From NCBI GenBank assembly GCA_030068525.1, contig JASJOS010000003.1, positions 310,001 to 374,000 on the forward strand: a stretch of DNA of 64,000 nt, written 5' to 3'. The translations under genes were made by a program, and so were the position numbers. Source of the DNA: Xanthocytophaga flava (lineage in GTDB: Bacteria > Bacteroidota > Bacteroidia > Cytophagales > 172606-1). The notes below the pieces were generated by a model. The model was not told the origin of the DNA. It did no database searches and was given only the letters and a program-made list of their open reading frames with translations. Below are positions 34,720 through 47,815 of the stretch, one piece after another; position 1 is the stretch's first letter, and each line of letters opens with the position of its first letter.

Positions 34720-36426
34720 ATGAATCATACTGTTGATACAATTGTCATTTTTGTTTTTTCTGCTTTTGTACTTGGAATCGGCTTGCTGTTTGCCCGCACA
34801 GGCCGTAATCTGAAATCGTTTTTTGCAGGCGGGGAGGCTGTGCCGTGGAGTATTGGAGGGCTGTCACTATTTATGAGTTTCTTTTCTGCCGGAACATTTG
34901 TTGCCTGGGGGTCGATTGCCTACAAACACGGATGGGTAGCTATCACTATACAGTGGACAATGTGTATTGGGGCTTTGGTTACAGGACTTTGGTTAGCCCC
35001 ACGATGGAAAGCTACTGGTAATCTTACAGCTGCAGAATTCATCCGCAGTCGACTTGGGACCCAAGTACAGAAAATGTTCATATATGTTTTCATACTCGTT
35101 TCAGTATTTATCAAAGGATCGGTATTATATCCGGTAGCTAAGTTAGTAAGCGTCTCACTGGATTTGCCACTGGTACCATGCACTATTTTTCTGGGTTTGT
35201 TTATGATTGCCTATACTGCTGTAGGAGGTCTGTGGGCTGTAATGGTAACTGATATTCTCCAATTTGTGATTCTGTCAGCAGCAGTGTTTATTCTCTTGCC
35301 TCTTTCCTTACAAAAGGCAGGAGGTGTTGATCAATTTATTCAACATGTGCCATCAGATTTCTTTAGCTGGTTTGCAGGAGAATATACTATAGGATTTATA
35401 TTTTCTTTCCTGATCTATCATATTTGTTATATCGGAGGCAACTGGACATTCGTGCAGCGCTACACCAGTGTAGACAGTCCACAATCAGCACGGAAGGTAG
35501 CTTTCTTGTTTGCAGCCCTTTATCTGATTAGTCCGGTTATCTGGATGCTACCGCCTATGCTGTATCGATCTATCAATCCTGCCCTAAGTGGCTTGGATAC
35601 TGAAAATGCATACTTGTTGGTATGCAAGCTGGTACTACCACCCGGCCTACTCGGGCTCATGCTCACAGGTATGTACTTTTCTACTTCGGCTAGTGCTAAT
35701 ACTGCACTTAATGCGGTATCAGCTGTATTCACTAACGACATATATAAGGGGTTTCTCAAACCAGAAGCAACGGATCTGCAATTGATGCGCGTAGCCCGAT
35801 TATCCTCCTGGTTTTTTGGGTTGGGAATGATCGTAATTGCGCTACTGGTACCAGCAGCCGGTGGTATGGTTGAGGTAGTATTGAGTATTTCAGCCATTTC
35901 GGGTGGCCCTCTGCTGGCTCCGCCCCTATGGGCTTTGTTCTCCAAGCGTCTCACAGGCAAAGCTACACTTTGGATAAGTGGTATAGGTCTTAGTGCCAAC
36001 CTGTTTTTTAAGATTCTGGCCCCTTGGCTGCTTCACTTCAAGCTGAGCCGTACACTGGAAACATTCATTGGAATTGGGTTGCCATTACTGCTATTGCTCG
36101 GTTATGAGTTATGGGCTGTCCGAACTAGTAAAATAGCACCCGAATATGAAGAATATCTGAATAATAAACGTGCAAAAAAAGCTGAGCAACTCTTTGTGAA
36201 AGATGCTGAGAGAGTATCCATTGCCCAGCAAAATCGCTTTGGCTTGCGCATCATTGCCTTTGCGTTGGTTTTCACAGCTTGTATGTTATTTATACTGAGT
36301 CTGCTCACTACCTCTGGCAGTATACTGACAGCAGGTATAGCCGTCATCATTCTGTTTGCAGCCGTTATTCCCTGGAAGGCCGCCCGACGTAACACTGAAC
36401 AAATTATTACCCCAGAGAAAGTATAA
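34720..36426 (+). CDS. Sodium:solute symporter (SSS family)
   Basis: This 568-residue inner-membrane protein has roughly 13-14 hydrophobic helices. It starts with TIVIFVFSAFVLGIGLLFAR, has the SSS-type FFAGGEAVPWSIGGLSLFMSFFSAGTFVAWGS stretch (about 35-68), YTAVGGLWAVMVTDILQF and the TSASANTALNAVSAVFTNDIY segment matching the family sodium-binding region. It probably imports a mono- or disaccharide, sugar acid or related product released in the periplasm, coupled to Na+. It starts 24 bp after the upstream gene, which fits an operon. Confidence 0.9.
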   Translation: MNHTVDTIVIFVFSAFVLGIGLLFARTGRNLKSFFAGGEAVPWSIGGLSLFMSFFSAGTFVAWGSIAYKHGWVAITIQWTMCIGALVTGLWLAPRWKATGNLTAAEFIRSRLGTQVQKMFIYVFILVSVFIKGSVLYPVAKLVSVSLDLPLVPCTIFLGLFMIAYTAVGGLWAVMVTDILQFVILSAAVFILLPLSLQKAGGVDQFIQHVPSDFFSWFAGEYTIGFIFSFLIYHICYIGGNWTFVQRYTSVDSPQSARKVAFLFAALYLISPVIWMLPPMLYRSINPALSGLDTENAYLLVCKLVLPPGLLGLMLTGMYFSTSASANTALNAVSAVFTNDIYKGFLKPEATDLQLMRVARLSSWFFGLGMIVIALLVPAAGGMVEVVLSISAISGGPLLAPPLWALFSKRLTGKATLWISGIGLSANLFFKILAPWLLHFKLSRTLETFIGIGLPLLLLLGYELWAVRTSKIAPEYEEYLNNKRAKKAEQLFVKDAERVSIAQQNRFGLRIIAFALVFTACMLFILSLLTTSGSILTAGIAVIILFAAVIPWKAARRNTEQIITPEKV

Positions 36427-36507
36427 TAGGCTTGCTTTAGAATTAGCAGTCTTATCAAAGAGAGCAACCACAAACCATTTTTATTCATTAGAAACTGAAA
36501 TTATGTG

Positions 36508-39387
36508 ATGAAGTATATAGTAAAGATTTTTGTTTTATGGCTACTCTATGTTCCAGTAGCTCTGTTCGCCCAATCCACCAGCAATCAGGAATCTTTGCTA
36601 TTGAATGGCAAGTGGGATTTTCGTATTGATCCGGAAAACATAGGTGAGGAACGAGGATGGCATACCTCTGGTTTTCAGGCGATAGGCTGGGATACAATGG
36701 AAGTTCCAGGTAATTGGGACCTATACAATCAGTATGCAACCTATAGTGGCAAAGGATGGTATCGTCGTTCGATAGAGATACCTGCCAGTTGGCAGGGCAA
36801 AACTATCCGTTTGGCATTTGAAGCAGTCTACCACGATGCAAAGGTCTGGCTTGATGGCACCTTACTTGGTCAAAGCCATAGCGGCTTTTTCCCATTTGAA
36901 TTTGACATTACCAAACTCATAAAGTCCGGTCAGCGAAGTACACTGGTAGTATGTGCTGATAACACGTTCCGGCGTGGGGCTATCTGGAACTGGGGTGGCA
37001 TTCGTCGACCAGTGTCCCTTATTGCAACTAATCCAGTACATATTGAACAAATACATATTCTGCCAGTTGCTGATTTGAAAAGCGCTACTGCTTCTGTGAC
37101 TGTTAAGTTACGGATCAAAAACAATACCGATCAACCTCAATCAGTAAAATGCGACATTGTTCTCAAAGATAAAAGTGGACATATACTAAAGGCCAGTAAA
37201 AATTTATCACTTTCTCTAACCATACCTGCTCAAAGCAGTCAGGAATATAGTGTGCAAACATCAATACCAAAAAGTGACACCCACTTATGGCATTTTGATG
37301 ATCCGTATTTGTATACAGCTCAGGCCACACTTTATATGGCAAATACACTTTCTGGTAAGCAACCCAACAAATTGACTAATACTCTACCATTACTTCATAT
37401 GGTGAGTGACCGGTTTGGGATTCGTAAAGTAGAAATTGATGGTCTGAGTGTAAAGCTTAATGGCGAGCTGGTACGGTTAATGGGCTATAACTGGGTACCT
37501 GATGACAGAACCACTGGCAATACGCTGCCTGCATGGCGATACCGCCAGGATATTGACTTGATGAAAAAATCAGGTGCGAATATGGCACGCCTCTCACATT
37601 TACCATTGCCCAAAGAAGTGCTTGATTATCTGGACGAAAAAGGGATGCTGGTATTTAGTGAAATACCACTCTGGGGACGTGACCAGCTCGTAGATCCAGA
37701 CAATCCACTCCCTAAACAATGGTTGAAAACTTTAGTCAGCCAGCAATTCAACCACCCTTCGGTTATTGGCTGGTGTGTAGGCAATGAAATTGGTTTTATC
37801 GGGGCCAATCCCAAAGTGCTTGAGTACGTTGAGTCTGCTATTGGGTATGTAAAAAAGCAGCTTGACAGTTCACGTCTAGTAGTGTATGTCAGTAATTCAG
37901 CGGATATACAACAGCGCGATCCGGTACAGTTTTCAGATATGATTCTTCTTAATAAATATGGAGACTTAGGTACCAATGCGGATAAGGCACACCAGAAGCA
38001 TCCGGGAAAGCCTCTATTTTACTCTGAATATGGTTACAACCTTACTGGCGAGACTCCAGACCAGGGTGTAATCAATGGCGCTAAAATGTTGAATGACATA
38101 CGAGACCGTGACTATCTGATGGGTGGTGCGTTGTGGACTTTCAATGATTACCGCAGCCATTGGCAGGCTCATCAATCCTGGAATACGGTACCCTCTGGCA
38201 ACCGATCCTGGGGAGTGGTCAATGTATACCGCCAGCCTAAGCAAGCCTATGAAATCTTCCGTCGCCAGTACGCTCCTATTCGTTCACTGGCAGCCTCAGG
38301 TACGGGTAAGTCTGTAACAATTAGCATTGAACCCAGAACTGTACTTGATCTACCTGCTTATACATTGAAAAATTATACACTGGTCTGGCAGGCAACAGAT
38401 AGCCAAGATCGCTACTTAGATGGTGGCTTTACAACTCTTCCTACTATCGCTCCTGGAAGTAAAGCCTTCCAACAATCTATTACCTGGAAGGCTGCTTCTA
38501 CTCAGATTGCCAAGACTACCTATACATTACTTTCGCCAACGGGGTATGCTGTTTATGACACAACCGTATATCTGCAAAAGCCTACCCCACCTGTTATAAA
38601 GCAAATGATTACGGGTGAAGGAGGGGTACGCATCCTGTTTGATAAAGTAGCTTCTGCTCAGCAGTACTTTCTTCGTTATGGCAAAACCGATTTTTCATCT
38701 GTCAGCGATACAACTACCCATCATTTTATCGATATCAGCAAATTAGAAGCTGGTCAATCATATCAGTTCCAGCTAGTGGCAATTAATGCCGCAGGTGAAA
38801 GTATACCCTCTGCTACGGCAAAGACCACCCCAGAAAGTCAATTGCTACCTCCTATAGTCTGGCATACTGAAGCAGCCAATAATGCTTTCTTTATTGGATA
38901 TAGCTACGCCAACTATGATTATCTCTACCAGATTCGTTACGGGACAGACCCAGCCAATGAAGATACATGGAAGTCGTTAAAAGTAACTACCAAAGGCATG
39001 TGCCGCATACCGAATTTGCAAAATGGCCAGACCTATTATTTCCGCATGAAACGTACCGATCAGGCATATGTAGAAAGTGGATGGTCTGAAATGCATAGTA
39101 TAGTGTTATCTGGCAATAATGATCCTCAAGTGGTAGAAGCTAAGGCAGTCCTACGTTCAGGATCGAAGGCTGTGATCGCCATTCACCCAGTTCCACAAGC
39201 AGCCGGATACCAGATTAGGTATCAACAAGATGGTAAAACACAAACCATTATCATCCTAGGCTCGTCACTGGACTATTTACCAATTGATGGACTCAAGCCG
39301 GGAAAGAACTATTCGTTTCAGGTTTCTACACTTGGACAAGAAAGTTCAGGGATTGTGCACAAAGCATTCACACAGATAGGAAATTAA
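36508..39387 (+). CDS. Secreted glycoside hydrolase family 2 enzyme with C-terminal fibronectin type III domains
   Basis: The protein has 959 residues from the ATG at 36508 (a GTG lies one codon upstream) and a signal peptide ending near residue 20 (PVALFAQ). The GH2 jelly-roll sugar-binding domain follows (NGKWDFRIDPENIG to SHSGFFPFEFDI), then the immunoglobulin-like domain and the TIM barrel with acid/base Glu427 in GWCVGNEIG and nucleophile Glu507 in FYSEYGYN. About 250 C-terminal residues form two to three FnIII-like domains. Family members cleave beta-galactosides, beta-glucuronides or beta-mannosides with retention; specificity is not clear. It belongs to the polysaccharide locus. Confidence 0.93.
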   Translation: MKYIVKIFVLWLLYVPVALFAQSTSNQESLLLNGKWDFRIDPENIGEERGWHTSGFQAIGWDTMEVPGNWDLYNQYATYSGKGWYRRSIEIPASWQGKTIRLAFEAVYHDAKVWLDGTLLGQSHSGFFPFEFDITKLIKSGQRSTLVVCADNTFRRGAIWNWGGIRRPVSLIATNPVHIEQIHILPVADLKSATASVTVKLRIKNNTDQPQSVKCDIVLKDKSGHILKASKNLSLSLTIPAQSSQEYSVQTSIPKSDTHLWHFDDPYLYTAQATLYMANTLSGKQPNKLTNTLPLLHMVSDRFGIRKVEIDGLSVKLNGELVRLMGYNWVPDDRTTGNTLPAWRYRQDIDLMKKSGANMARLSHLPLPKEVLDYLDEKGMLVFSEIPLWGRDQLVDPDNPLPKQWLKTLVSQQFNHPSVIGWCVGNEIGFIGANPKVLEYVESAIGYVKKQLDSSRLVVYVSNSADIQQRDPVQFSDMILLNKYGDLGTNADKAHQKHPGKPLFYSEYGYNLTGETPDQGVINGAKMLNDIRDRDYLMGGALWTFNDYRSHWQAHQSWNTVPSGNRSWGVVNVYRQPKQAYEIFRRQYAPIRSLAASGTGKSVTISIEPRTVLDLPAYTLKNYTLVWQATDSQDRYLDGGFTTLPTIAPGSKAFQQSITWKAASTQIAKTTYTLLSPTGYAVYDTTVYLQKPTPPVIKQMITGEGGVRILFDKVASAQQYFLRYGKTDFSSVSDTTTHHFIDISKLEAGQSYQFQLVAINAAGESIPSATAKTTPESQLLPPIVWHTEAANNAFFIGYSYANYDYLYQIRYGTDPANEDTWKSLKVTTKGMCRIPNLQNGQTYYFRMKRTDQAYVESGWSEMHSIVLSGNNDPQVVEAKAVLRSGSKAVIAIHPVPQAAGYQIRYQQDGKTQTIIILGSSLDYLPIDGLKPGKNYSFQVSTLGQESSGIVHKAFTQIGN

Positions 39388-39467
39388 TTAAAAGTTAGAC
39401 TCTGCTATTTTAAAGATACAATTCTTCTGGCCTGTCGGCCAGCCAAATCCGTTTTCTATTCAAAGCT

Positions 39468-41750
39468 ATGATAAAGCAAGACGCAACAGATCATCGACAA
39501 TTACATATTGAGTCATACCAGGCTGATCTGGTTGTAGTCGGGGGTGGACTCTCCGGCACATGTTGTGCCATTACTGCCGCCCGTGCCGGCATCCAGGTCA
39601 TTCTGGTACAGGACCGCCCTGTACTGGGTGGCAACTCTTCCAGTGAAGTTCGATTGTGGGTGTTGGGCGCTACCTCTCATATGGGAAATAACAATCGATG
39701 GGCCCGCGAAGGTGGTGTAATTGATGAGATTCTACTGGAAAATACATACCGAAACCCAGAAGGAAACCCGGTTATTTTTGATACTGTACTACTCGAAAAA
39801 GTAATGCTGGAGCCTAACATCAGATTACTACTCAATACGGCTGTTTTTGATGTAACAAAATCCAATGCTCAGACTATAAGCAGTGTTAAGGCATTTTGCA
39901 GTCAGAACGGGACACTTTATGAGCTTTCAGCGCCGCTGTTCTGTGATGCATCCGGAGACGGAGTAGTTGCCTTTGGTGTGGGTGCTGCCTTTCGCATGGG
40001 AGCTGAGTCTACAACAGAATTTGGCGAAAAATTTGCCCCATCCACTGAATATGGCGAGTTGTTGGGTCATTCAATTTATTTTTATACCAAAGATACTGGC
40101 AAGTCAGTGCGTTTTGTGCCTCCTGCCTATGCCCTACAGGATATTACTCAGATTCCCCGCTATCGCCGATTTACGGCCAAAGAACAAGGCTGTCAGCTTT
40201 GGTGGCTTGAATATGGCGGACGACTTGATACAGTACACGATACCGAAGCGATCAAGTGGGAACTCTGGAAAGTTGTTTATGGTGTATGGCACTATATCAA
40301 AAACTCAGGCAACTTCCCTGAGGCTGATACCATGACACTTGAATGGGTGGGCACTATTCCCGGCAAACGGGAAAGCCGTCGCTTTGAAGGAGATTACATG
40401 ATCTGTCAGCAGGATATTGTTGAACAAAGAACGCATTATGACGCCGTTGCTTTTGGTGGATGGAGCATTGACCTGCACCCAGCCGATGGCGTATTTTCTG
40501 AAAAACCTGGCTGTAATCAATGGCATAGCAAAGGTATTTACCAGATTCCTTACCGTTGCCTTTACAGTCGTAATATTACCAATCTGTTTATTGCAGGCCG
40601 TATCATTAGTGCCACGCATGTTGCCTTTGGCTCTACACGGGTGATGGGAACGAGTGCCTATGGAGCCCAGGCTGCAGGTATGGCGGCTGCTTTATGTTAT
40701 AAAGGTCAGTTAGTACCCCGCCAGCTCACAGAAATAGATCATATAAAAGTATTGCAGAACGAGTTACAAAAAACAGGACAGTACATTCCTGGATTTAAGT
40801 TAGTTGATCCTGCGGATTTGGTACAAAATGCTCAGATTAGTGCCTCCAGCGAACTTGTATTGACTGAACTACCTACCAACGGAGAGTGGTTTGCTCTGCA
40901 GGACAGTGCAGCTCAGCTCTTACCTCTGCGCTCAGGAACACCTATGCCAGAAATTGTTACCTGGGTACATGCCAGTGCTGATACAGAGCTCGTGGTTGAA
41001 CTTCGGTGTTCTGGTAACGCCACTAATCACACACCTGAGGTAATCTTAAGCAGACAGAGCATTTATATACAATCGGGCAGACGAAGCATTCATTTGAATT
41101 TTAATGTCAGTGTTGAAGAAGACACCTATGTGTTTATATGCTTTCTCAAAAACTCACTGATCGAAATGTGTTATAGTAATGTACGGATTTCTGGAATCCT
41201 ATCTGCTTTCAATAAAACTAATCCGGCTGTGTCTAATTATGGCAAGCAGCAGCCAGTGGAAGACTTGGGAGTAGATGCATTTGAGTTTTGGTGTCCGGAT
41301 CGTCGTCCTAATGGCAAAAACATTGCTATGCAAATTAATCCAGGCATTGCTTTATTTAAGGCAGATAATGTTCGTAATGGTATTGCTCGTCCTACAAATC
41401 AACCCAATGCCTGGATAGCCGATTTGACTGATGAAAAGCCCACCCTTTTACTTGAATGGCCAGATATACAAACTATTCGAAAAATAGAACTCAGCTTTGA
41501 CACCGATTTTGATCATCCGCTGGAAACAGTTCTCATGCAACATCCCGAAACCATCATGCCATTTTGTATTCAGGACTTCTCGTTGTGTAATGATCGGAAT
41601 GAACGGATCTATGAAAAACAGGGCAATTACCAAACACGTCATACTATTCAGTTTTATACTCCTATTTATACCCGCCAGTTAAAACTACATCTACAAAAAT
41701 CTCATCAGACGGTAGCTGTATCACTTATGGAAATTCGCTGCTATCAATGA
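39468..41750 (+). CDS. FAD-dependent oxidoreductase with C-terminal beta domain
   Basis: The 760-residue protein has no signal peptide and begins with a dinucleotide-binding motif VVVGGGLSGTCCAITAARAG (22-41) followed by LVQDRPVLGGNSSSEVRLWVLG, as in the FAD_oxidored (PF12831) group. An FAD-binding CDASGDGVVAFG motif and an IAGRIISATHVAFGSTRVMGT segment near the end of the flavin domain (about residues 370-400) support this. The last 280 residues are beta-rich. Such proteins recur in Bacteroidota and Planctomycetes carbohydrate loci, but their reaction is not established. It probably acts in the cytoplasm on the imported product. It is the last gene of the locus. Confidence 0.87.
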   Translation: MIKQDATDHRQLHIESYQADLVVVGGGLSGTCCAITAARAGIQVILVQDRPVLGGNSSSEVRLWVLGATSHMGNNNRWAREGGVIDEILLENTYRNPEGNPVIFDTVLLEKVMLEPNIRLLLNTAVFDVTKSNAQTISSVKAFCSQNGTLYELSAPLFCDASGDGVVAFGVGAAFRMGAESTTEFGEKFAPSTEYGELLGHSIYFYTKDTGKSVRFVPPAYALQDITQIPRYRRFTAKEQGCQLWWLEYGGRLDTVHDTEAIKWELWKVVYGVWHYIKNSGNFPEADTMTLEWVGTIPGKRESRRFEGDYMICQQDIVEQRTHYDAVAFGGWSIDLHPADGVFSEKPGCNQWHSKGIYQIPYRCLYSRNITNLFIAGRIISATHVAFGSTRVMGTSAYGAQAAGMAAALCYKGQLVPRQLTEIDHIKVLQNELQKTGQYIPGFKLVDPADLVQNAQISASSELVLTELPTNGEWFALQDSAAQLLPLRSGTPMPEIVTWVHASADTELVVELRCSGNATNHTPEVILSRQSIYIQSGRRSIHLNFNVSVEEDTYVFICFLKNSLIEMCYSNVRISGILSAFNKTNPAVSNYGKQQPVEDLGVDAFEFWCPDRRPNGKNIAMQINPGIALFKADNVRNGIARPTNQPNAWIADLTDEKPTLLLEWPDIQTIRKIELSFDTDFDHPLETVLMQHPETIMPFCIQDFSLCNDRNERIYEKQGNYQTRHTIQFYTPIYTRQLKLHLQKSHQTVAVSLMEIRCYQ

Positions 41751-41820
41751 TATAAAGGATGTGATGATAAAAGTATCAACTTATCAAAAAGTAAAAATGG
41801 ATTTTCTTTAAGCAAAGGCA

Positions 41821-41936
41821 TTCTTTGACTTAGTGAAAAAATGAAAAGCTTTTGCGGATCAGGCTTACCTAATCCGTCAAAAACAAAAACCCTCTGAATA
41901 TCAGAGGGTTTTATCATTAACTTGTGGAGCTGGAGG
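41821..41936. repeat. Left direct repeat: copy of ssrA 3' end and its downstream region (attL candidate)
   Basis: This stretch resembles 47694-47815. Shared identical blocks are TTCTTTGACTTAGTG (41821-41835), CCTAATCCGTCA (41868-41879) and a 21-bp core (41916-41936) that contains the last 13 bases of the tmRNA gene. A terminator hairpin lies at the same relative place in both copies. The copy lacks the rest of tmRNA, so it fits the left boundary of an element integrated at ssrA. Confidence 0.75.
41886..41912. terminator. Hairpin terminator, remnant of the ancestral ssrA terminator
   Basis: A 12-bp stem (41886-41897 with 41901-41912, ACCCTCTGA core) has a 3-nt loop and A/T tracts on both sides. 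It can end the polysaccharide-locus transcript. Its position relative to the tmRNA 3' copy matches the hairpin at 47767-47789. Confidence 0.75.
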
Positions 41937-42065
41937 ATCTCTAACAAAGTCGGATAACAAACAGAAAACCGCTTATTCTGGCTAAAAAGGGCTTTTTTGT
42001 CTATAAATGTCTATGATTGTAGCTAAAAAATCACTATATTCATCACCAGTACCGTCACCTGTTAG

Positions 42066-43224
42066 GTGACTAACTTTCATCAACGGCAGATTCAGGATGA
42101 TGCGCTATTGTTCAACGAGCAAAAGCAGAAAGAGCTTGAAAAGGCGGGAAACGAAGAAGTGCAGATCCAAACCGAGATTGAAAGAATCAAGCTGCAAACC
42201 ATCAAGCAGTCATCCGAGGCACAACGAACCATTCAGGAGGCCAACTTCGCGGCTACAAAGTCGTTTGTGGACGGGGTGAGCGGGCTTTTTCAGATACTGG
42301 CAGCCAATCAGGAGGACGCGACCGAACTGGCCAGAATCGCAGCCCTTGCCCAGATTGCCATTGATACCGCATCAGCCATTGCAACACTGGTACCCACAGC
42401 GGTAAAGGTTCCCTCGGAGGCTGCATCCGTTGCGGACCAGCGGCACCAGCCGTATACGGAGCGGTGTACGCATCAACCCTGGCATCGGGCATTGCGTCCA
42501 TAGTGGTCAATATCACCAAGGCTACCGAACTTCTGCAATTTGAGCAAGGCGGACTGATTGATCCAAGAGGGCAAGGCATTACCCTTATCTTGTCCCATAT
42601 CTTTTCTGGAAAAAAGGTCTGTAAATAAATAAAAACTCTCTCCCTGCCCTCCTGAAAGGAACTTGTGACAAATAGAGCCTTTCTTGGTGTTTGAGCTAAA
42701 GAATATTCTCCAGTCGGAGAGGCCGCCGGTCTTGTCAAGAGTTCCTTTCAGGTGGACAAAAAGGGTGTAAGGGCTCAAAAAAGAGATTATCCCTTAAAAG
42801 CTGCAAAAGTGAAAAAGTTATGGGACAGGATAAGGGTATTACCTTAGGTGGCAAGCGTCACGCGCAGGGAGGCACCAAGATTCTGATTGAAGGGCAGGGA
42901 ATGATTGAAGCGGAGAAAGGAGAAGTATTGACCATTGTCAAGCGCAGCGATTCAGCGAAACTATCTGCTTTGTCTCAAACCAATGTTGCAAGAGGCGGTG
43001 TAAGCTTCATGGAACAAGGAGACATCAGCACAATAGGAGCGGCCATTACTGCCAATGCAGGCAGTCAGTTGGTAAAGGGGATCAGCTTTGATTACGTGCA
43101 GTTTGCCAAAGTTCTGGAACAAATGCCAGCTCCCATTACCAGGCTGACAGATATTGAACGGGTGCAAGGTAATAAGAATCGTGTGGTGAACAAAGGCAAC
43201 ATCAGGCCCATTAAACGGGGATAG
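42066..43224 (+). pseudogene. Phage tail tape-measure protein C-terminal remnant, frameshifted and interrupted
   Basis: The first part (about 42066-42434) encodes a charged helix (NEQKQKELEKAGNEEVQ) and ATKSFVDGVSGLFQILAAN, typical of the end of tape-measure proteins. A one-base deletion near 42434 shifts the frame; the next frame continues GPAAPAVYGAVYASTLASG and GGLIDPRGQGITL. There the MITE-like element at 42580-42838 is inserted. After it the protein resumes as GITLGGKRHAQGGTKILIEG and ends in a basic tail at 43224. The N-terminal bulk of the original protein is missing. Base composition is more GC-rich than the neighbours. The tape-measure protein sets phage tail length; this copy cannot function. 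Confidence 0.7.
42580..42838. mobile_element. 259-bp MITE-like element with 20-bp terminal inverted repeats
   Basis: The ends TACCCTTATC(T)TGTCCCATA (42580-42599) and the inverse at 42819-42838 match at 19 of 20 positions. A second inner inverted repeat (42651-42671 with 42732-42752, CCTGAAAGGAAC core) makes the element highly self-complementary. ATTACC-like sequence occurs at both junctions, consistent with a target duplication. It splits the tape-measure reading frame between RGQGITL and GITLGGK. A minus-strand frame across it faintly resembles part of an IS4-type transposase, suggesting an internally deleted insertion sequence; that point is weak. Confidence 0.68.
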
Positions 43225-43613
43225 TTATAAAAGCAAACAGCCCGGCATAAAGTCGGGCTGTTGTGGGATTACATCGTTTCTAAGATTGTAGCCACCTCCC
43301 ACAACAGAACTGTAGGTTTCGTATAATTTACATGAGTAGTTTATTTAAAAGAGTTATTTTGCCAACCCATTACAAAACCGCACATCTTCCATGAAAGAAA
43401 AATATGGTCTGTCCCTTAATTTAAATAAGGAAAGAGACTTTTCAATCGCTGAACCAACTATTGGAATTTCTACAAGAAAACAATGCGACTGGTGATACGA
43501 ACCACATATTAACAATTAACAAGCCTGGATAAATTCGGATGGTGTGCTTGGCAACACGAAGGCAACTATTTTCACATACGTAAAGAAATCGGAAAATAAT
43601 GTAAAATCTATTT
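43225..43613. other. Non-coding stretch inside the element
   Basis: Apart from the hairpin at 43236-43262 I see no gene here. It should contain the promoter of the acyltransferase gene. Confidence 0.45.
43236..43262 (+). terminator. Hairpin terminator after the tape-measure remnant
   Basis: A perfect 9-bp stem (43236-43244 with 43254-43262, AACAGCCCG and its complement) has a 9-nt loop, 12 bp past the stop. The following U-tract is weak. Confidence 0.6.
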
Positions 43614-44696
43614 ATGAATACATCCACAATCAGACCACTAGTAAAAGAAAGACTCTCTGCTATCAACGGACTTCGGGGCATAGCTATCTTAATGGTTATT
43701 TGTCACCATACCTTAAGCTATACAGTTTCCAAATCTTTACATATCTTTCGAATGGTCCATAATGGCTGGACAGGCGTGAATTTATTCTTTATCTTATCCG
43801 GGTTTGTACTTTACAGGCCTTATTTTCTGGGTGAGCGTCACTTTAATACCTGGCAAGATGTAAAATGGTTTTACAAACATCGGTTTTACAGATTATATCC
43901 ATTGTTTGCCCTGAATGTTCTGATATCGGTGAGTATGAATTCACCCATTTCATGGACTTTTCTCAAATCAGGCTTATTGTCACTTACAACTCTGACCCAA
44001 TTTACAACAGACAATTTCTTTCCCATCATTAATCCAGTACTCTGGAGTCTGATGCTCGAGATTTGGTTCAGTGTGTTTTTCCCTTTGCTGATTTTACTAA
44101 TTAACCGCTTCGGATTCTCCTCAGTACTTGTCAGTTCGCTAATTATTGCCCTGGTGTTTCGTTTAGTGGGGTATCGTTTTGAGTTCTCTTCCTCCATTTA
44201 TGTGACTCCTTTCAAAGACAACTTTTTCGCCAGACTGGATGATTTTGTAGCAGGTATGCTGGTTGTCAGACTTTATTACCAGCATACACAGATTAAAGCC
44301 TGGCCATTAACGATTGTTTCCCTACTGGCGCTGCTGGCATCATTTCACTTATGGGATATGCGGGCTTTGAATCAATTGCCCGATTACATTATGCCTTTTT
44401 TAAACATTCTGATTATCGTCGGATTCTGCGGTTTAACCTTGTCTGCGTTACAGACAAAATCATTTCTCTGGTATATATTTTCGTTCAAGCCATTGCAATT
44501 GACAGGTATGATGTGTTACTCAATCTATCTATGGCACTTTTTGATTCACGTAAAGATTGAGGGTCTACCCGGTAGTGTAAATTACCTGATATATGCTGTT
44601 ATTGTTTTTTGCATATCTGCCTTAACTTATCGCTATATAGAGTTTGGTAGCACCAAAGATTATCGAAAACTGTTTCTTCTTGATGATACTAAATAG
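43614..44696 (+). CDS. Acyltransferase family 3 membrane protein (OafA/YrhL-like)
   Basis: The 360-residue protein begins with RLSAINGLRGIAILMVICHHTL, the usual acyltransferase_3 opening with the conserved His pair in CHH. It has about ten membrane helices, WTGVNLFFILSGFVLYRPYF, and a late YSIYLWHFLIHVKI segment. Family members O-acetylate or otherwise acylate surface sugars. It is the only gene of the ssrA-flanked element that looks fully intact, so it may be useful cargo (surface modification can change phage sensitivity or antigenicity), though that role is inference. Start ATG at 43614. Confidence 0.88.
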   Translation: MNTSTIRPLVKERLSAINGLRGIAILMVICHHTLSYTVSKSLHIFRMVHNGWTGVNLFFILSGFVLYRPYFLGERHFNTWQDVKWFYKHRFYRLYPLFALNVLISVSMNSPISWTFLKSGLLSLTTLTQFTTDNFFPIINPVLWSLMLEIWFSVFFPLLILLINRFGFSSVLVSSLIIALVFRLVGYRFEFSSSIYVTPFKDNFFARLDDFVAGMLVVRLYYQHTQIKAWPLTIVSLLALLASFHLWDMRALNQLPDYIMPFLNILIIVGFCGLTLSALQTKSFLWYIFSFKPLQLTGMMCYSIYLWHFLIHVKIEGLPGSVNYLIYAVIVFCISALTYRYIEFGSTKDYRKLFLLDDTK

Positions 44697-44756
44697 CACC
44701 AAAGAATTGTCTTTTATTAGCTAAAAAATGCCTAGTGCGAATGGTGGCACTAACTC

Positions 44757-44801
44757 TTACAGACTTCCGGCGTTACCTTTGGTAACTGCGAAAGGCTGTA
44801 A
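44757..44801. repeat. Imperfect hairpin with GTTACC-ttt-GGTAAC apex
   Basis: Outer arms TTACAG (44757-44762) and CTGTAA (44796-44801) pair, inner arms GTTACC (44772-44777) and GGTAAC (44781-44786) pair, and several of the bases between also pair (17 of 21 positions by hand). It starts about 60 bp after the acyltransferase stop. It could be a structural RNA element, a protein site or a weak terminator. Confidence 0.5.
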
Positions 44802-45357
44802 ACTTCACAAAGCATCTGCACTATGCATAATTGTCTGACAATCAGATTCTCAAAATTTGGTGAACAATGGACCAGATTTGGGCCATGGTAGACATGGCTC
44901 AAAATTGAGCTATCATTATCAGGCAGCTACAATGACTGCTCAGATTTGAGGGATAGTGCAGAATTGCTTTATGTCTGGCTGTACTCAAGTTTAAGTAAAT
45001 GTTGACTATCCATCATTTGCAAAAAGTGAGATTTCACCAATTGCCAGAATTCAAATTTGAATCCTAAAGCATGTCCATTTGCTGGATACCCGCGTTTGAC
45101 AAAATTGTCAAGTGAGCAAGGGCCCAAAAGTAGATGATCCTGATTTGGATGAACCTGTTAGTGAGTAGTTTATAATTGTAGACAGGTCTAAGGTTATGAT
45201 TGTCGATGCACCGACGTTTACGACCAGAGGAAAGTTTACACTTGTGATTTCGGAGATTTACGAATTTGCAGCTTACTGATAATCATAGTATTGAGGTACT
45301 GTAATACTGAATTACACTATATATGCATGCCACCACTTCAGTACTTCACTACTGGAT

Positions 45358-45379
45358 CGTTACCCCAATTAGGGTAACG
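45358..45379. repeat. 8-bp inverted repeat CGTTACCC/GGGTAACG
   Basis: CGTTACCC (45358-45365) and GGGTAACG (45372-45379) are perfect inverted copies around a 6-nt spacer. It shares the GTTACC core with the hairpin at 44757-44801, suggesting related sites. Confidence 0.5.
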
Positions 45380-45455
45380 GCATAAACACGGGTTTTTCCG
45401 CTTTTACTACCGTTTTAGTATAAGTACAGGAAAGCATGTATTTATGCTAATATTT

Positions 45456-45626
45456 TTATTTCTTTTTGGGTGCGATGAGTCGTTTGTTGTCGAATGGGTT
45501 GCCGAGTTTGTGCTTGGTGTACTCCTTGCGCTTTCGGGGCACTATCTCGCATTCCCCGTTGAGTATCTTCAGATACATCTCAATGGCTTTGCCTATGTGT
45601 TCGGGTGTGAGGTCTGCCGCTGTCAT
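45456..45626 (-). CDS. Small basic hypothetical protein
   Basis: From the internal ATG at 45626 the protein has 56 residues (MTAADLTPEHIGKAIEMYLKILNGECEIV, shown here over residues 1-29, then a Lys/Arg-rich tail ending in PKKK). It lies 16 bp downstream of the XRE gene on the same strand and probably forms a two-gene unit with it. The basic tail suggests nucleic-acid contact, but no family is recognised. An upstream start at 45677 would overlap the XRE gene and looks less likely. Confidence 0.5.
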   Translation of the reverse strand: MTAADLTPEHIGKAIEMYLKILNGECEIVPRKRKEYTKHKLGNPFDNKRLIAPKKK

Positions 45627-45642
45627 ATATATTGAAGATAAG

Positions 45643-45873
45643 TTAATTTCCACACAGTTTAGCCCTGTATTCATCAAGTAACTTTTCTAATTCTTGTTCA
45701 GCTGCTGTAACATTCCCGTCTGTCTTATATCGATCGTCATTACTGCCAAACATCTTTGCAATGGTTGTTTTGCTGCGCCCAGAGTATTCTGCCAGTCGCT
45801 GGTAAGATACTCCAAACTCATCAAGTCTTTTATGTAGAGTGCTTAGCCGGTTTGATATGTTAACGTCGCTCAT
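45643..45873 (-). CDS. Small helix-turn-helix (XRE-like) regulator
   Basis: The 76-residue protein has a helix-turn-helix in LDEFGVSYQRLAEYSGRSKTTIAKMFG (about 17-43), followed by a short acidic helix. Small regulators like this commonly control lysis-lysogeny or transfer genes in mobile elements. It is divergent from the WYL_2-like gene, and a 15-bp palindrome (45901-45915) lies 28 bp upstream of its start, a natural operator position. It appears intact. Confidence 0.7.
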   Translation of the reverse strand: MSDVNISNRLSTLHKRLDEFGVSYQRLAEYSGRSKTTIAKMFGSNDDRYKTDGNVTAAEQELEKLLDEYRAKLCGN

Positions 45874-45900
45874 CGGTCTTTAAAAATATCAGATTTGTAA

Positions 45901-45915
45901 TGTCCTTCAAGGACA
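45901..45915. promoter_or_regulatory. Palindromic operator candidate between divergent element genes
   Basis: TGTCCTT-C-AAGGACA is a perfect 7-1-7 palindrome between the XRE-like gene and the divergent WYL_2-like gene. Binding by the XRE product is inferred from position only. Confidence 0.5.
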
Positions 45916-45958
45916 AAATGTTTGCACCAAAATAACACCAAAAGATTATTAATTCACT

Positions 45959-46311
45959 ATGAAAGCCCTATCTAACTTCCATCTGCTTGTAATGCAAAAG
46001 CCTGGAACCTGGTAAAAGAAACAGGTATCAGTTTGTCAGAGGCACTGAAAGATGCATGGGCACTGGTGAAGTTACAGGCATTGAAAATACTCATGAAGTT
46101 GGGAGCCGTACTGGTTACATTCCGTAAGATCGATGGTACTGTTACTACTCGCAAGGCAACCAGAAACATAGATTTAGTGCCAGCAGAGAAGCATCCAAAA
46201 TACGGAAACCGCGAATCTGAATATATCTGGGTATTACCTTTCTTTGATACAGAAAAACAAGCGTGGAGAAGCTTAAAAGCAGAAAACCTTATCACAATCT
46301 CAATACTATAA
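45959..46311 (+). pseudogene. WYL_2 (DUF2693, Sm-like SH3 barrel) family gene with N-terminal frameshift
   Basis: The main frame (46033-46311 from a TTG codon) gives LMKLGAVLVTFRKIDGTVTTRKATRNI, then PFFDTEKQAWRSLKAENL, the pattern of WYL_2/DUF2693 proteins common in Bacteroidota phages and conjugative elements. The same frame extends upstream as NAKAWNLVKETGISLSEALK without a start codon, while ATG at 45959 opens another frame (MKALSNFHLL) that stops at 46015. A one-base shift between about 45976 and 46012 would join them. It is therefore likely broken, unless a shorter product from the TTG is used. Confidence 0.6.
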
Positions 46312-46345
46312 TCATTCATTCACTCACTCTTTATCTGCTATTTCC

Positions 46346-46642
46346 ATGGAAGCGACATCAGAAACAACTCAAAGCCCTGGTATCAGACCATTGAACAGTC
46401 CTTATTTGGATAAAGCAAAGTTAGAGGCTATTTCCTCTTTACTCGATGAGGATCTTGTTGTAGCGGCCAAGCAGTTAAGCCAGTACAAGGAACTATTGTT
46501 TGCAGCACAGCAGATGTTTTATCTCGAATGCAGAGAAGTGTCACCAACTACTCAGGAGATATTTTCCCGTCACAATCATTTAGATACCATGCATCATTTC
46601 TTTTCCCAACTGGAAAACATGATTTACACCAACCTGAAATAA
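46346..46642 (+). CDS. Hypothetical protein of the integrated element
   Basis: The 98-residue protein from ATG at 46346 has a polar N-terminal region (MEATSETTQSPGIRPL) and then a mostly helical body (LDEDLVVAAKQLSQYKELLF and TMHHFFSQLENMIYTNLK). No signal peptide, membrane segment or known family is recognised. It lies 34 bp after the WYL_2-like gene in a row of small co-oriented genes typical of phage or conjugative-element modules, and it is one of the few without an obvious lesion. Confidence 0.55.
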   Translation: MEATSETTQSPGIRPLNSPYLDKAKLEAISSLLDEDLVVAAKQLSQYKELLFAAQQMFYLECREVSPTTQEIFSRHNHLDTMHHFFSQLENMIYTNLK

Positions 46643-46683
46643 TTCTTCATTCATAAAATTTTCACTCTTAACATCTTACTCTC

Positions 46684-46929
46684 ATGCGTGCAGCAAAAAC
46701 ACAATCCAATGTAGCTTCTTCCAGCACAGTTTCTCAAAATACTCTTCCTTCTTCTGGTCAGGTTGTAGAGGCAGTTTAAGTTTAGAAAGCCATTGAACAG
46801 GATTCCAGACAACCGATTATAGATAAACTGATAGGATCTATCCTTAAATACGGCAAAAATGAAACAGAGGCCGCTTTTGAATTTAACGATTACTTACCAT
46901 GTCTCATGACCGTTTCTGCTATTGTCTGA
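46684..46929 (+). pseudogene. Small gene with two in-frame stop codons
   Basis: ATG at 46684 opens a frame rich in Ser and Thr (RAAKTQSNVASSSTVSQNT), which is interrupted at about 46777 by TAA and, one codon later, TAG. The frame then continues as KAIEQDSRQPIIDKLIGSIL and KYGKNETEAAFEFNDYLPCL to TGA at 46927-46929. Continuation of a protein-like frame beyond the stops suggests a recently inactivated gene of about 80 codons. The 3' end overlaps the next gene by 31 bp, as in compact phage modules. The family is unknown. Confidence 0.5.
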
Positions 46930-47267
46930 CACTTCCTATTCATCCAGGTAATTCAAAATACTTTATGAATACCATCAACTTACTGGAAGGGTTTAGGGAT
47001 TTATCTACACCTGCATACTATGATCAAGACACACAAGGTGTTTTATGTAACTCTGCACAGGATATCGCATTGCATATTGTTGATTTTTACGTATCCAGAA
47101 AAGAAGTGACACAGGAAAGAAGAATACAGTTGCATAATGAATGATCGGCTGCATTAGAGTTTTACTTAAGCGCAGTTGCCCGGTCACACAATCAGAAGTT
47201 TGAGTTTGTCATAGAGCAAACCCAACCGTTATATGACATTCTCCAATCATTGCTTGCTCATGAATAA
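46899..47267 (+). pseudogene. Hypothetical gene with internal TGA stop
   Basis: ATG at 46899 gives MSHDRFCYCLTLPIHPG and later SAQDIALHIVDFYVSRKEVTQ, stopping with TGA at 47142-47144. The same frame then continues as SAALEFYLSAVARSHNQKFE and ends QSLLAHE at 47267, giving 122 codons in all. The second half looks like helical protein sequence, so the TGA is probably a disabling mutation. No family is recognised. Confidence 0.5.
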
Positions 47268-47319
47268 AATTAAATAGATTGAGTTAAAAATAATTCAGTC
47301 TAAACCAATCACTGTTATT

Positions 47320-47627
47320 ATGGAGAACACTTGCAAACCGTTAACACATGAGGAACTAAAGGCTATGATAAAAGAAGCCTTATTTAGAATTGTCCCTGCA
47401 TTGGCAACAGAACTTATGCGCCTACAGGAAGAAATGCGAAAGGAGGAGGACTTACTTACCTTTCGTCAGGTAGCGAAAGAATATAAGCTTAACTACAATA
47501 TCCTGATGAAGCTAAAAGCCAAGGGTGTATTGATTTATACAATGGTTGTGGTCGATCTCTAATTAGTCGCAAAGAGGCAAAGCGCCAGGTCTCTTTAAAA
47601 GGCAAACACGACAAGGGAGCCAGGTAA
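47320..47627 (+). pseudogene. Helix-turn-helix (excisionase-like) gene with C-terminal frameshift
   Basis: ATG at 47320 opens a frame with a helical N terminus and a winged-helix-like stretch LLTFRQVAKEYKLNYNILMKLKAKGVLIY, read over about residues 45-73, followed by an early stop at 47562. A one-base shift near 47543 gives NGCGRSLISRKEAKRQVSLK to a stop at 47627, a better C terminus for DNA-binding proteins of the DUF/excisionase-like group, which often end with SRKEA-type helices. Position next to the attachment site is usual for excisionase-type genes. The identification as excisionase is tentative. Confidence 0.5.
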
Positions 47628-47693
47628 ATAAACGTGGCTCAAATTTGAGTCATCTATTTCTTACAAATGATTTCTTACATTTGAAGAAAAACG

Positions 47694-47815
47694 TTCTTTG
47701 ACTTAGTGGGGAAAATGGATAGTTTTTGCAGATTTTCGTCACCTAATCCGTCACTCACAAAACAAAAATCCCCTGACTGGCAGGGGATTAAGCTATTAAC
47801 TTGTGGAGCTGGAGG
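47694..47815. repeat. Right direct repeat at the intact ssrA 3' end (attR candidate)
   Basis: Matches 41821-41936 through the blocks 47694-47708, 47742-47753 and the identical 21-bp core 47795-47815. This copy is continuous with the complete tmRNA gene. Confidence 0.75.
47767..47789 (-). terminator. Rho-independent terminator of ssrA
   Basis: A 9-bp perfect stem (47767-47775 with 47781-47789, AATCCCCTG and complement) has a 5-nt loop and is followed, in the minus-strand direction, by a T-rich run. It lies 15 nt past the tmRNA 3' end. Confidence 0.8.

Follow-up and report, generated by a model that had tools for sequence, protein, structure and literature searches.

The window analysed here, a stretch of 64,000 nucleotides of the Xanthocytophaga flava genome (contig JASJOS010000003.1; the genome is called G000 below), harbors one complete gene for transfer-messenger RNA (tmRNA, ssrA), predicted by both ARAGORN and Rfam and the sole match above the cut-off in the 9.49-Mb genome, nine other listed matches falling below it. 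Downstream of ssrA lies a 5.9-kb segment bounded by an imperfect direct repeat of about 130 bp, which probably represents the remnant of an integrative element (Table 1). Both copies of the repeat contain an identical 21-bp core, ATTAACTTGTGGAGCTGGAGG. The right copy completes the tmRNA, ssrA being therefore whole beside the element, and the left copy holds only the final 13 nt of the gene (41924-41936), so that direct repeats with the ssrA 3' end are present at both boundaries. With the core included, the two copies align over 123 columns at 77% identity (BLAST), and their flanks taken without the core reach an alignment score of 69, whereas 500 dinucleotide shuffles gave at most 30. A terminator-like hairpin is found directly downstream of each core, in the direction of ssrA. 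A sequence-only reading of this DNA had described a 21-bp identical core within an imperfect repeat of about 120 bp, with one copy fused to the complete tmRNA, the other holding its last 13 bases plus a terminator hairpin, and phage-like and decaying genes in between; all of this was borne out, by the alignment of the two copies that it proposed, by the tmRNA predictions, and by the tape-measure fragments and broken genes described below.

The segment starts with pieces of a tail tape-measure gene, which are 49%, 78% and 45% identical to a 928-aa protein of a related element in the same genome (C60b, G000:C60:215470-218256), itself matching tape-measure PHROGs and phage records. A repeat resembling miniature inverted-repeat transposable elements (MITEs) lies inside this remnant. 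When the window stretch was searched against its own genome, with 40 of 174 candidates scored, 52 match rows were obtained, and 45 of them fall at about this repeat. The acyltransferase open reading frame (ORF) that follows may be retained cargo, because its frame is intact and no close relative of it was found in the same-genus genomes G002 or G001 (its best relative outside G000 is 44% identical, in G006, from another genus, and the best one in G002 reaches 33% over part of the protein). The right half is a cassette of small genes, of which the last ORF has no profile match above the cut-off; its counterpart in an element of G002 matches phrog_66 (E 2.6e-9). No integrase, primase or small terminase was found in the remnant, none of the 11 places matching PF00589 in the genome lies inside the interval, and, of the modules of a complete prophage (capsid, portal, tail), only the tape-measure remnants were recognised there. 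The palindrome TGGCTCAAATTTGAGTCATC, or a similar one, occurs after the last gene (47629-47654) and at 44889-44914 in the window, and also near the right ends of three of the related elements (those of C60, C1 and G002:C4).

Table 1. Features of the ssrA locus (window positions) and delimited related elements (contig positions)
Feature	Position	Strand	Evidence or remark
Outer flank of left repeat, probable relic right end of older element	41807-41915		motif, arm-type site, terminator
Arm-type site TTACCTAATCCGTCA in left copy	41865-41879	+	putative integrase site
Terminator-like hairpin CCCTCTGA..TCAGAGGG	41890-41908	-	z -4.1; like that behind ssrA in G002
attL core, 21 bp, including last 13 nt of ssrA	41916-41936		repeat comparison
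Left attP arm with inverted site GTCACCTGTTAGGTGAC	41937-42076		alignment to G002:C4
C-terminal remnant of tail tape-measure gene, in pieces	42066-43224	+	three pieces match 928-aa protein
MITE-like repeat inside tape-measure remnant, inverted ends (CCTTATCTTGTCCCATA type)	42573-42845		
Intact acyltransferase-3 ORF, 360 aa, probable cargo	43614-44696	+	PF01757 E 1.4e-25
Small HTH-like protein, probable element regulator	45643-45873	-	75% to C60; 40-47% to C60b, C55, C1; Pfam HTH below cut-off
WYL_2-domain gene, frame apparently broken near start	45959-46311	+	PF10902 E 9.7e-18; 71-84% to four relatives
98-aa conserved cassette protein, open frame	46346-46642	+	93% to C60, 95% to C1
Broken copy of 191-aa cassette gene	46684-47267	+	separate pieces 79-95% to C60 and C1 proteins
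ORF where G002:C4 has excisionase-like HTH gene	47320-47562	+	identity by position only
Right-end motif GTTCTTTGACTTAGTG	47693-47708	+	exact at three G000 element right ends; also G002:C4
Arm-type sites GTCACCTAATCCGTCAC	47738-47754	+	putative integrase sites
Element-borne terminator-like hairpin now behind ssrA	47767-47789	-	z -3.6; stem unlike left copy and G002
attR core, 21 bp, restores ssrA 3' end	47795-47815		repeat comparison and tmRNA prediction
ssrA (tmRNA), tag GESNYALAA	47803-48164	-	ARAGORN, Rfam
C60 element	C60:48912-65557		16-bp exact repeat, E 0.023; no tRNA
C1 element	C1:98042-125098		17-bp exact repeat, E 0.004; tRNA-Arg 3' end
C55 element	C55:180943-203868		15/16 bp, E 0.71, weak alone; tRNA-Ser 3' end, repeat just beyond integrase
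G002:C4 element (L093, L094)	227463-262030		20/22 bp, first 15 exact, E 0.002; tRNA-Val 3' end

Segments related to the remnant were found at four places in its own genome, two of them on contig C60 (C60 and C60b) and the others on C1 and C55, and the WYL_2 protein profile added one relative in G002, which matches the HTH-WYL_2 stretch at the DNA level. The HTH protein and the WYL_2 protein (71-84%) are common to the window and the four relatives in G000. Each of the five relatives examined has a tyrosine recombinase gene, inside the element or close to it: in the four with delimited ends, the integrase adjoins the repeat opposite the cassette, and in C60b, for which no delimiting repeat was found, it lies 12-13 kb away from the cassette. 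These integrases are only 23-33% alike in the eight element pairs aligned by BLAST. Further afield, a search of genome contigs for relatives returned one distant locus and a search of viral contigs none, the 191-aa protein had no match in 50,697 phage records, and WYL_2-type matches were found in 7 of 98 genomes, strong ones in G000 and G002 alone.

The ends of the window segment resemble those of the element inserted at the tRNA-Val gene of G002. The left arm (41985-42076) aligns with the integrase-side, or left, arm of that element (score 50, shuffle maximum 29, 0/500), and the right arm (47709-47794) with its right arm (score 54, shuffle maximum 25, 0/500). Because the left arm matches the integrase-side arm, both ends of the window element seem to survive, an internal deletion having presumably taken the integrase. 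A site common to left and right arms was detected in four of five elements tested (those of G002:C4, C1, C60 and C55, with 0, 0, 3 and 0 of 1000 shuffles respectively), and such sites may be the arm-type sites of the integrases. The left end had also been considered as a further tape-measure fragment, since 41952-41972 matches the start of the C60b tape-measure gene (21 bp, 19 identical, E 0.014), a candidate dropped on the arm alignment; as the two stretches do not overlap, this short match is put down to chance but not disproved.

The two hairpins differ in their stems: CCCTCTGA/TCAGAGGG is common to the left hairpin and to that behind ssrA in G002, and the right copy has CCCCTG/CAGGGG. Among the relatives, the elements of C1, C55 and C60 were folded as well: C1 showed a strong hairpin on the element side of its tRNA-Arg core (z -4.9), but neither the C55 nor the C60 right end folded better than shuffles (z -0.1 and 0.2). 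Terminator replacement thus seems likely for ssrA and tRNA-Arg, but not for every site.

An insert-free site, as sought by the sequence-only reading in related genomes, was found in one of the two same-genus genomes, on the downstream side of ssrA only. In G002, 5.76 kb of the downstream flank (window 36000-41762) aligns at 89.5%, and ssrA follows about 0.26 kb further on without the insert, the gene of the left flank lying about 0.27 kb from ssrA; the in-house integrase profile, built from sequences including the integrase of G001, found nothing at this locus. The neighbours upstream of ssrA differ between the two genomes (the match ends at about 48249). The other same-genus genome, G001 (72% complete), has an integrase adjoining ssrA, and integrase ORFs within about 0.3 kb downstream of ssrA were found in 2 of the 32 genomes with scanned ssrA loci, G001 and G003 (most loci scanned with 1.5 kb of flank), indicating that other elements also use ssrA in this order of bacteria. 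These two ORFs (L063 14258-15774 in G001, L064 7871-9383 in G003) apparently belong to other element types, and a relaxase-like ORF, named by eye and not by a profile, is present near ssrA in G001.

Taken together, we estimate at about 0.82 the probability that the interval 41916-47815 is what is left of a tyrosine-recombinase element integrated at the ssrA 3' end, including the older scar discussed below. The earlier claim that an element inserted there, restored the gene and subsequently lost its integrase finds support in the insert-free site in G002, the integrase-bearing relatives and the left arm match, and the remnant is classed as decayed, not as a functional element, because its integrase gene is missing. 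In the history proposed, an earlier element would have used the ssrA site first, leaving only its right end. The attP of the later one would have brought, besides the last 13 nt of ssrA, a further 8 bases and a terminator of its own, and ssrA would thus have stayed whole upon entry, the anatomy displaying the outcome from which the act is reconstructed. To judge from the relatives, a deletion may then have fused the left attP arm, at about 42076, with the tape-measure gene and eliminated the integrase, replication and packaging genes, with small lesions and the MITE-like insertion following it. That the repeat arose instead by ordinary duplication of the ssrA 3' region, the phage-like genes having come independently, is highly improbable: the interval indeed contains no integrase, but its left arm resembles the integrase-side arm of a delimited element, its cassette has the same order as in the relatives, and G002 offers an insert-free site.

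The DNA outside attL is expected to be host DNA. In the window, it nevertheless carries the signature of an element right end. The motif GTTCTTTGACTTAGTG occurs exactly three times in G000, always at the right end of a member of this element family, and at four places when up to one mismatch is allowed; it is also found at the right end of the G002 element, and C55 and C60b carry variants. Just outside attL, ATTCTTTGACTTAGTG (41820-41835) differs from it by one mismatch, and the following DNA (41836-41915) aligns with the tRNA-Val element's right arm (score 35; 0/500 shuffles, which reached at most 21). To judge from these likenesses, the flank outside the left core is probably what remains of an earlier element at ssrA, reduced to its right end, which the sequence-only reading had missed, and ssrA was probably hit at least twice. 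By the same token, since this flank is itself probably such a relic, the G002 site may be insert-free without being virgin.

The left copy had first been taken as native host flank, a view abandoned once the same arm had been seen in the tRNA-Val element, and kept as a rival. A single insertion would then suffice, the left flank being native DNA downstream of ssrA and attP having picked up about 120 bp of this kind of DNA from a previous host. The left terminator does resemble the one behind ssrA in G002, and the left copy and the G002 flank align (0/500 shuffles). The motif, however, accompanies elements in tRNA-Val (G002), in tRNA-Arg (C1) and in a tRNA-free place (C60), the arm sequence is also present at tRNA-Val, and the motif is absent from the 170 bp of the G002 ssrA flank inspected, which makes a single insertion unlikely. 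It may also be asked whether the outer relic belongs to one of two tandem elements, deleted down to its right end, rather than to a scar older than the arrival of the inner element. The order of right end, core and left arm at 41807-42076 is that expected from a tandem array, and both tandem satellites and islands stacked at ssrA have been described (PMC10111431 and PMC3146451), but the likeness between the left terminator and that of G002 points to an outer relic older than the divergence of the two genomes, so that we consider a tandem origin rather unlikely.

Several observations weigh against an ssrA element preceded by an older one. The match with G002 stops at about 48249, just upstream of ssrA, and the DNA beyond differs, synteny being thus shown on one side of ssrA only; G002 is moreover the only closely related near-complete genome for comparison. 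The integrase-bearing relatives within the same ssrA repeats that the sequence-only reading had proposed to look for did not turn up, no intact ssrA-specific relative being found. Left and right arms of the window element are not significantly alike (91/1000 shuffles). The motif pattern read backwards gave two matches at up to one mismatch, so that the count of four is weak alone, and the places of the motif make the case. Finally, the G002 ssrA flank aligns to both window repeat copies (0/500 shuffles each), but, taken without its terminator, it has only 13 bp in common with the tRNA-Val arm (11/500 shuffles), which leaves its own status as a scar weak.

What kind of element the relatives represent was addressed with PHROGs and Pfam profiles, a further 67 ORFs being scanned out of the 114 of at least 70 aa in the C60, C1, C55 and G002 elements (133 with C60b). 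They encode integrases, primase- or helicase-type proteins and small terminases, the latter sought in the four delimited elements and found in C60 and the G002 element and in 2 of the 67 further ORFs, by sequence those of C1 and C55; C1 also has a large terminase. A tape-measure gene is present in three of five (C55, C60b and the G002 element), and C60 and C1 encode a 730-aa protein that weakly matches a family of unknown function. C55 has a weak tail-chaperone match (E 3e-4) and one 304-aa protein with weak matches to baseplate, endolysin and sheath families (E 1e-4 to 0.01), and these tail-type matches count against a bare satellite. Among the cargo are type III and ISP/IIG restriction-modification, along with a GmrSD-type protein and a Schlafen-type helicase. 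Neither a capsid nor a portal appeared among the matches listed for the 67 ORFs (25 of 63 Pfam and 25 of 42 PHROG families), nor among those of 15 larger proteins scanned separately (10 per library); an HK97 capsid had no match in eight genomes, and of four genomes searched for a portal, G000 had none and G002 had one, on another contig. This content fits satellite-like elements, gutted prophages being a possible alternative.

Tentatively, and with rather less than even confidence, the remnant may be placed in an undescribed satellite-like family of the genus. Its members would have in common a conserved right-end cassette, which comprises the HTH and WYL_2 genes, usually another two small genes, one excisionase-like gene and the motif GTTCTTTGACTTAGTG (or a variant of it). 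With this they would combine exchangeable integrase-plus-arm modules setting the target (ssrA, tRNA-Val, tRNA-Arg, tRNA-Ser or intergenic), together with a small terminase, a gene for a tape measure or of another tail type, and a bay of defence cargo, some elements replacing the terminator of the gene they enter. The motif might even lie in an outward promoter driving the integrase only when the element is circular, a reading that draws on the Bacteroidetes promoter consensus.

At a broader scale, one RNA gene can serve repeatedly as an integration site, and because every element brings its own ssrA 3' end and terminator with it, the right end of an old one may persist after the rest decays. 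Right-end scars of this kind can mislead a search for empty sites. The less decayed relatives also provide a lead to phage satellites in this bacterial group, none of this kind being listed, by title or start of abstract, in the searches made of the satellite literature on Bacteroidetes/Bacteroidota or tape measures. Compared with phage-inducible chromosomal islands (PICIs) and P4-like satellites, as described in PMC6092414 and PMC11364771, the relatives are alike in their end-placed integrase, HTH regulators, primase/helicase, small terminase, defence cargo and lack of a recognised capsid. They are nevertheless larger (16.6-34.6 kb, against about 10-15 kb for PICIs), three of five have a tape-measure gene, and they are not known to have a helper phage.

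Integration at ssrA and stacked ssrA islands are already known. According to PMC10111431, tyrosine-recombinase prophages and islands at tRNA and tmRNA genes carry attP replacement sequences that keep the target gene functional, and tandem satellites occur; the window element resembles them in its gene-restoring attP and in the possible pairing, and differs in that it has lost its integrase and that its replacement visibly includes a terminator hairpin. In Dehalococcoides, PMC3146451 describes islands stacked downstream of ssrA with a 20-bp ssrA direct repeat, an arrangement similar to ours, but these islands use a serine recombinase and insert in the T-loop region, whereas the relatives described here encode tyrosine recombinases. 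What is new here is the right-end signature of the family outside attL, probably left by an older element, and the difference in terminators between the two probable generations of elements.

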